NCBI GenBank assembly: GCA_035652535.1
Contig: DASRDP010000002.1
Location: 1-47,319 of the forward strand
Source of the DNA: Chloroflexota bacterium
GTDB lineage: Bacteria > Chloroflexota > UBA6077 > SHYK01
Direction of reading: 5' to 3'
DNA length: 47,319 bases
Shown here: positions 21,854 through 34,141 of the stretch, one piece after another
Layout of the letters: every line of letters starts with the position of its first letter
How positions within the stretch are numbered: the first letter of the stretch is position 1
Program-made: the position numbers and the translations under genes
Notes under the pieces: model-generated
What the model was told of the DNA's origin: nothing
The model's input: only the letters and a program-made list of their open reading frames with translations
Databases searched by the model: none

Positions 21854-22019
21854 CGCGATCCTCCTCTGCGCCGATCAAGCCCGTCCGGATGCACCGCCGT
21901 CCTGATGGGAAACCCCGGATGCCCTCGCCTGCTGGAGATGCTTCACGGCGCTGAGCGCGATTATTGCACGGCAATCCCCCTCGCTCGGTCCGACGAGTCG
22001 CCGGAGACGCGATACTCGC

Positions 22020-32299: not shown

Positions 32300-32312
32300 C
32301 GTCCGGTTAACC

Positions 32313-32828
32313 GTCATCCCGAGGGCACAGCCCGAGGGATCTCCCGGGCGCGAGATGCCTCGCTGCGCTCGGCATGACGACCGAACCGTCATCCCGAGGG
32401 CACAGCCCGAGGGATCTCCCGGGCGCGAGATGCCTCGCTGCGCTCGGCATGACGACCGAACGGTCATCCCGAGGGCACAGCCCGAGGGATCTCCCGAGCG
32501 CGAGATGCCTCGCCGCGCTCGGCATGACGACCGAACGGTCATCCCGAGGGCCCAGCCCGAGGGATCTCCCGAGCGCGAGATGCCTCGCTGCGCTCGGCAT
32601 GACGACCGAACGGTCATCCCGAGGGCCCAGCCCGAGGGATCTCCCGGGCGCGAGATGCCTCGCTGCGCTCGGCATGACGACCGAACGGTCATCCCGAGGG
32701 CCCAGCCCGAGGGATCTCCCGGGCGCGAGATGCCTCGCCGCGCTCGGCATGACGACCGAACGGTCATCCCGAGGGCACAGCCCGAGGGATCTCCCGGGCG
32801 CGAGATGCCTCGCCGCGCTCGGCATGAC
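32313..32828. repeat. Seven-unit tandem array of a 75-bp hairpin element
   Basis: Units start at 32313, 32388, 32463, 32538, 32613, 32688 and 32763 with an exact 75-bp period; the last lacks the 9-nt linker. Each begins GTCATCCCGAGGG and ends CTCGGCATGAC. The ends pair (GTCATnCCGAG with CTCGGnATGAC), and an inner pair GAGGGATCTC/GAGATGCCTC extends the stem. The linker makes GACCGAACGGTC, a small palindrome, at most junctions. Units differ at only a few places (GCACAG or GCCCAG; CCGGG or CCGAG; CGCTGCG or CGCCGCG). There are no unique spacers, so it is not a CRISPR. It resembles dispersed GTCAT...ATGAC intergenic elements, here amplified. Confidence 0.95.
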
Positions 32829-32833
32829 AGACC

Positions 32834-34062: not shown

Positions 34063-34141
34063 GTCATTCTGAGCCGGCAGTCGAAGAATCTCGCGAGAAG
34101 TGATCGTTACTGCGTAGATCCTTCGCTTCGCTCACCATGAC
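34063..34141. repeat. Single diverged GTCAT...ATGAC hairpin element
   Basis: Starts GTCATTCTGAGC and ends CTCACCATGAC, with inner complementary parts GAAGAATCT and AGATCCTTC. The plan is the same as each unit of the 75-bp array (outer GTCATnnnGAG/CTCnnnATGAC stem, inner GA-rich ATCT stem) but the sequence differs. It is therefore a second, single-copy member of the same element type, placed after the dienelactone hydrolase gene. Confidence 0.75.

Follow-up and report, generated by a model that had tools for sequence, protein, structure and literature searches.

The closest described counterparts of the repeat analysed here are the CGTC-tagged REPs of Di Nocera, De Gregorio and Rocco (2013, PMC3733652). 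According to the sections of that paper considered here, REPs with outward-facing tags form head-to-head (HH) dimers, and clusters of such dimers, repeated in tandem along with DNA from their flanks, lie mostly between genes that are convergent or co-directional. The stem measures 8–9 bp, with complementary AT at its first two positions, and encloses a loop of 4–5 nt, other loops being found in a few species. The same sections state that no dedicated transposase was found, and describe dimers within larger palindromes in one species; target duplications are not described in them. A second relevant group comprises the REPINs and GTAG-tagged REPs that are moved by RAYTs (PMC3116915, PMC2817692).

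The window, a 47,319-nucleotide stretch of DNA analysed at its full length, contains a single tandem array according to TRF, at positions 32309–32833, with a period of 75, 7.0 copies, 98% matches and 0% indels. The seven near-identical units of period 75 that were noted in a preliminary description are thus confirmed both by TRF and by the sequence itself (Table 1), and each begins with GTCAT and ends with ATGAC. The linkers between them read GACCGAACG at five junctions and GACCGAACC at one; five of the six junctions contain the palindrome GACCGAACGGTC, so that the self-pairing linker proposed earlier stands for these five and fails for the remaining one. The array folds far better than shuffled sequence (z −8.1), with none of 100 shuffles equally good. 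Open reading frames of 205–298 aa enter or span the array in four of the six frames and look spurious, as had been anticipated from the open frames, and the description of the units as palindromic, non-coding tandem elements likewise stands. For annotation, the array illustrates that a repeat period divisible by three gives rise to long spurious ORFs. A CRISPR array, with identical repeats and unique spacers, was considered and rejected, as the linkers here are themselves repeats.

Table 1 Coordinates of the array, its constituent parts and neighbouring features within the window.
Feature	Positions	Strand	Remarks
Short ORF, 89 aa	32030..32299	+	CxxC pairs; ends 13 bp before the array; unproven gene
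Whole tandem array	32313..32828	.	7 units (66 bp) and 6 linkers (9 bp); period 75
Unit 1, long REP half	32313..32343	+	GTC tag, ATCCC stem, GA/GA mismatch, GGGC-ACA-GCCC, CTC tail
Unit 1, spacer	32344..32351	.	8 bp
Unit 1, short REP half	32352..32378	-	inverted
Linker 1-2	32379..32387	.	GACCGAACC
Unit 2	32388..32453	+	
Unit 3	32463..32528	+	
Unit 4	32538..32603	+	
Unit 5	32613..32678	+	
Unit 6	32688..32753	+	
Unit 7	32763..32828	+	
Short ORF, 118 aa	32834..33190	-	ends 5 bp after the array; unproven gene
Single diverged dimer	34063..34141	+	ATTCT stem in first half; R1 23 bits, E 2e-4

Each unit consists of two inverted REP-like hairpins with outward-facing tags, placed around an 8-bp spacer and built on different stems. 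Both halves follow the same plan: the GTC tag comes first, the stem of 5 bp is followed by a GA/GA mismatch that is conserved, and a CTC tail closes the half. Read on the plus strand, the long half is GTC-ATCCC-GA-GGGC-ACA-GCCC-GA-GGGAT-CTC, and the short half, read on the minus strand, is GTC-ATGCC-GA-GC...GC-GA-GGCAT-CTC. Dimers throughout the same genome are 66 bp long and combine one ATCCY half with one ATGCY half, and their spacer varies in sequence and is 8 bp in nearly all copies. The GTC tag is nearly invariant and is preceded by C, T or G in the genome's own copies and mostly by T in relatives of the class.

The preliminary description had each unit fold into one long hairpin. Such a pairing is possible as an alternative, but given the unlike stems of the two halves it retains mismatches, and the element is better described as two separate hairpins, a REP heterodimer. 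The distinction was examined on 73 dimers from 27 genomes, 66 of them heterodimers (132 halves), collected with a search pattern that fixed parts of the outer arms and left the scored inner arms free. The complement of a half's own stem was found within that same half in 111 of the 132 heterodimer halves, compared with an average of 20 for shuffled stems, whereas the complement of the partner's stem occurred in only one. The folding unit is therefore the single REP, and the long single hairpin was rejected as the conserved form because heterodimer halves hardly ever match the stem of their partner. Directly before the 3′ arm, GA is present in 116 of 120 halves, which makes the tandem G·A mismatch in the stem a hallmark of the element. 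The 3-nt tail across 120 halves is CTC in 76, CCC in 18, CTT in 13 and CCA once. Taken together, the GA/GA mismatch and the almost exclusive complementarity of stems within their own half specify which hairpin would have to be recognised by a binding protein or nuclease.

Variation among the seven units is confined to positions 15 (AAACCCA), 35 (GGAAGGG) and 52 (TTCTTCC), two of them in loops and the third in the spacer, and the stems are invariant. The GCCCAG shared by units 4–6 was correctly recognised earlier and had been taken to indicate stepwise duplication. While duplication is the likely source of the units, all four combinations are present for each pair of the variable sites, so simple stepwise duplication is insufficient to explain the mosaic, and recurrent mutation or exchange among the units has to be invoked as well. 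The same variants bear on whether the array could be an assembly artefact, in which one or a few units were multiplied or mixed by the assembler. The unit count of seven is assembly-based, and with a longest exact internal repeat of 91 bp a short-read assembly could still miscount the units; moreover, contigs C5, C84 and C131 start or stop within similar arrays, a sign of assembler difficulty with them. Still, the unit-plus-linker strings are distinct in seven of seven cases, which argues against a pure copying artefact, and comparable tandem arrays exist at other places of the genome and, with a period of 77, in a genome of another family (G045). An artefact is very improbable.

The genome-wide and comparative survey proposed in the preliminary description revealed that the dimer is dispersed in its own genome and across the phylum. 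A covariance model built on 22 own-genome copies (R1) finds about 50 full-length dimers with scores above 55 bits, spread over more than 20 places of the genome, besides many weaker matches, and at most of these places the flanks are unrelated. One diverged dimer lies in the window itself, 17 bp past the end of a dienelactone-hydrolase gene (Table 1). The dimer model also matches weakly, at 29 bits, to 21896–21961 of the window, a stretch with no recognisable GTCAT ends that may be a chance match or a decayed copy. Matches to R1 occur in 20 of the 29 genomes of the class, and a strict dimer pattern is found in 58 of 301 genomes of the phylum, in up to 220 copies each, with none for the reversed control.

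We consider it likely that clustered copies of a REP-dimer element, which is dispersed, non-coding and non-autonomous, make up the array, and that it arose by past transposition followed by local tandem amplification. Dispersal is shown by the unrelated flanks of the copies. The dimer would have been scattered into intergenic DNA by a putative transposition enzyme, after which one dimer with a few flanking bases would have been amplified in tandem at this site by replication slippage or unequal recombination, and later exchange between the units would account for the mosaic of variants. As such, the array is nothing out of the ordinary for repeats of this kind.

A natural candidate for the enzyme is a RAYT, and the search for one suggested earlier had a divided outcome. 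The genome encodes a single Y1 transposase, which is a RAYT by the curated model NF047646 (83.3 bits, cut-off 80). At C36:28873-29917 (L055:6874-7918) of the window's genome (G000), this gene has tandem arrays to either side, with a period of 28 on one side and 62 on the other, which consist of the unrelated palindrome GCCGCCCTGAAGGGCGGGCC and not of the GTCAT element. A genuine RAYT and the REPIN-like architecture of the unit both speak for a REPIN in which this RAYT cuts the GTC-tagged hairpins, spreads them and makes them tandem, as does the palindrome CCCGCCGTTCACGGCGGC, whose sequence closely resembles that of the RAYT's own repeat; of its roughly ten sites in the genome, four (C9:3565, C48:8526, C104:55509 and C152:8021) have GTCAT dimers no more than about 200 bp away. 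This proximity possibly reflects nesting or a shared target preference. Against RAYT-driven spread, the arrays beside the RAYT are of a different palindrome, R1 has no matches around 14 Y1 genes of the class, and of the Y1 loci scanned no more than three have the tag pattern nearby, one of them as a full pair at a distance of about 1.1 kb from a partial Y1 match. Furthermore, no Y1 gene was detected at E≤1e-3 in the element-rich genomes G012, G007, G014, G294 (59 dimers), G223 and G245. With the RAYT flanked by another palindrome and element-rich relatives lacking one, mobilisation by a RAYT is unsupported, and we regard it as improbable.

A different setting of the dimer is found in a relative, G083, which holds 220 strict dimers and of which about 0.4 Mb of sequence was read. 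Here the dimer is the core of miniature transposons of 114–123 bp (one odd pairing measures 152 bp) with ends GCA[A/G]TA...TA[T/C]TGC, and the ends of the dimer-cored elements read GCAATAGAGCATAAGTAACGC...GCGGTATTGC. Matching 8-bp direct repeats (7/8 or better) border 18 of 19 such elements, compared with a mean of 1.2 in shuffled controls. Direct repeats of 8 bp on both sides are expected from DDE-type transposition. In the syntenic region of G245 one dimer site is empty, with borders blurred by a few bases, and a tandem pair in G083 has a period of 131, equal to 123 + 8. Other dimers of G083 and its family lie within different outer palindromes. At L288:9563-9808 (G083:C35), one dimer-cored miniature transposon is apparently inserted in another, with near-matching 8-bp repeats.

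With these elements in view, an ordinary DDE transposase may move the dimer as the core of a miniature transposon, and naked copies would be remnants. The direct repeats, the empty site, the tandem pair of period 131 and the occurrence of dimers inside different outer palindromes are all consistent with such a cargo role. However, the dimers of the window's genome, its class and family f20 are naked, with neither outer terminal repeats nor target duplication, and miniature elements with the same ends also carry a different long hairpin core (L280:14810-14986 and L264:8832-9015), which makes the link between transposon and dimer modular. Around the own-genome copies, of which eight single ones were usable, no target duplications and no shared outer ends were seen; direct repeats did not exceed chance, and inverted matches in the flanks slightly exceed those in shuffles, owing to two sites. 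As a general account of the element, the cargo explanation is possible but on the less likely side. An equally tentative proposal is that CGTC-like REP dimers can do without a dedicated transposase and may serve as exchangeable hairpin cores in several unrelated miniature transposons, being spread by any DDE transposase that acts on the ends of these, with naked copies such as the window array persisting and multiplying by slippage in the loops.

How the arrays grow is suggested by the further ones on C48, C9, C5, C104, C126, C22, C84 and C147, the linkers of which differ in sequence. Partial copies within the arrays extend from the tag inward and mostly end in a hairpin loop, with breaks in the long half after GAGGGC or so (C5, C147 and C36) and in the short half after GAGCG or so (C48, C9, C101 and C22); breaks at the stem base are seen in C84/C5. 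Each partial copy carries roughly 8–11 bp of flank. Loop-ended partial copies would fit strand slippage or template switching at hairpins, and since the breaks fall mostly in loops, the arrays probably grow by local duplication. Judged from its sequence, the window linker could be read as 4–5 bp from either side of one dimer, with GACC derived from the right and AACC from the left. At C82:37747-37894 (L068:2748-2895) of the same genome, single REP halves are repeated head-to-tail with a period of 40, unlike the dimer arrays.

The gene context of the copies agrees with the REP-dimer reading: for 15 copy sites with both neighbours called by a rough ORF heuristic, the neighbours are convergent at five, in the same direction at nine and divergent at one, the last being doubtful. 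Conserved hairpins near gene ends may act at the RNA level on transcripts, including at mRNA 3′ ends, and the array might be kept as a set of 3′-end protectors or terminators for the flanking genes, its copy number tuning expression. The array is flanked by the ends of two converging short ORFs, a second dimer follows the hydrolase gene and the stems show compensation, all of which agree with such a function. On the other hand, the flanking ORFs are unproven genes with no family match, recent copying or DNA-level recognition would equally conserve the stems, and no known RNA family is matched at its threshold (the best Rfam match has 24 bits against a threshold of 268). In addition, an orthologous array was not found in relatives: a search with the DNA and the hydrolase protein gave no syntenic neighbour, and the nearest relative matches in the hydrolase gene only, at 70% identity, so that no empty site is definable in the window's lineage. 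Strict dimers were likewise absent from 0.88 Mb around relatives of the hydrolase, a sample mostly from other phyla and too small to establish absence. We consider a functional RNA array rather unlikely and favour the transposed and locally amplified REP dimer.

Searching the literature with the repeat sequence gave coincidental matches only, none of them concerning repeats. Three features had no counterpart in the literature searched, which was covered in part: the hairpin with its GA mismatch, the statistic on own-stem complementarity, and the placement of the dimer in miniature transposons of relatives. The new point here is the G083 elements, miniature transposons that are bordered by target duplications of 8 bp and have the dimer as their core. 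For the transposase-less CGTC-type REPs, in so far as they are treated in the sections of PMC3733652 considered (Di Nocera et al. 2013), this offers a lead: in relatives of the element, REP dimers occupy the centre of miniature transposons, whose 8-bp target duplications are clean and for which one empty site or more is on record.

Among the known systems, MITEs of the DDE type resemble the dimers of G083, which form the core of short elements bounded by terminal repeats and by target duplications of 8 bp, but differ from the own-genome copies, which have neither, as far as the few usable single copies tell. The REPINs and GTAG REPs moved by RAYTs, as presented in the parts of PMC3116915 and PMC2817692 considered, likewise have two inverted REPs per dispersed unit; the tag here is GTC and not GTAG, and there is no linkage to a RAYT in the own genome or in several element-rich relatives. 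On present evidence, identity with RAYT REPINs was rejected, given the absent GTAG tag and a RAYT that is not flanked by a cognate REP. The closest likeness is to the CGTC REPs as portrayed in the sections of PMC3733652 considered, with which the window element shares the outer GTC tag, the 3-nt unpaired tail, the predominance of HH dimers, which are often heterodimeric, tandem clusters that include flanking DNA, intergenic siting and no associated transposase. The first stem pairs are AT in the own copies, as in the CGTC REPs, and AC is common elsewhere in the phylum. In contrast to the published 8–9-bp stem and 4–5-nt loop, the own copies have a stem of 5 bp, the GA/GA mismatch and a further 2–4 bp, and a loop of 3 nt; the tail is mostly CTC and not CCA, and the outer palindromes of G083 with 8-bp target duplications set these relatives apart from what the same sections describe. 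Because stem and loop depart from the definition given there, membership among the CGTC REPs is not claimed; the window element works like a CGTC REP dimer.
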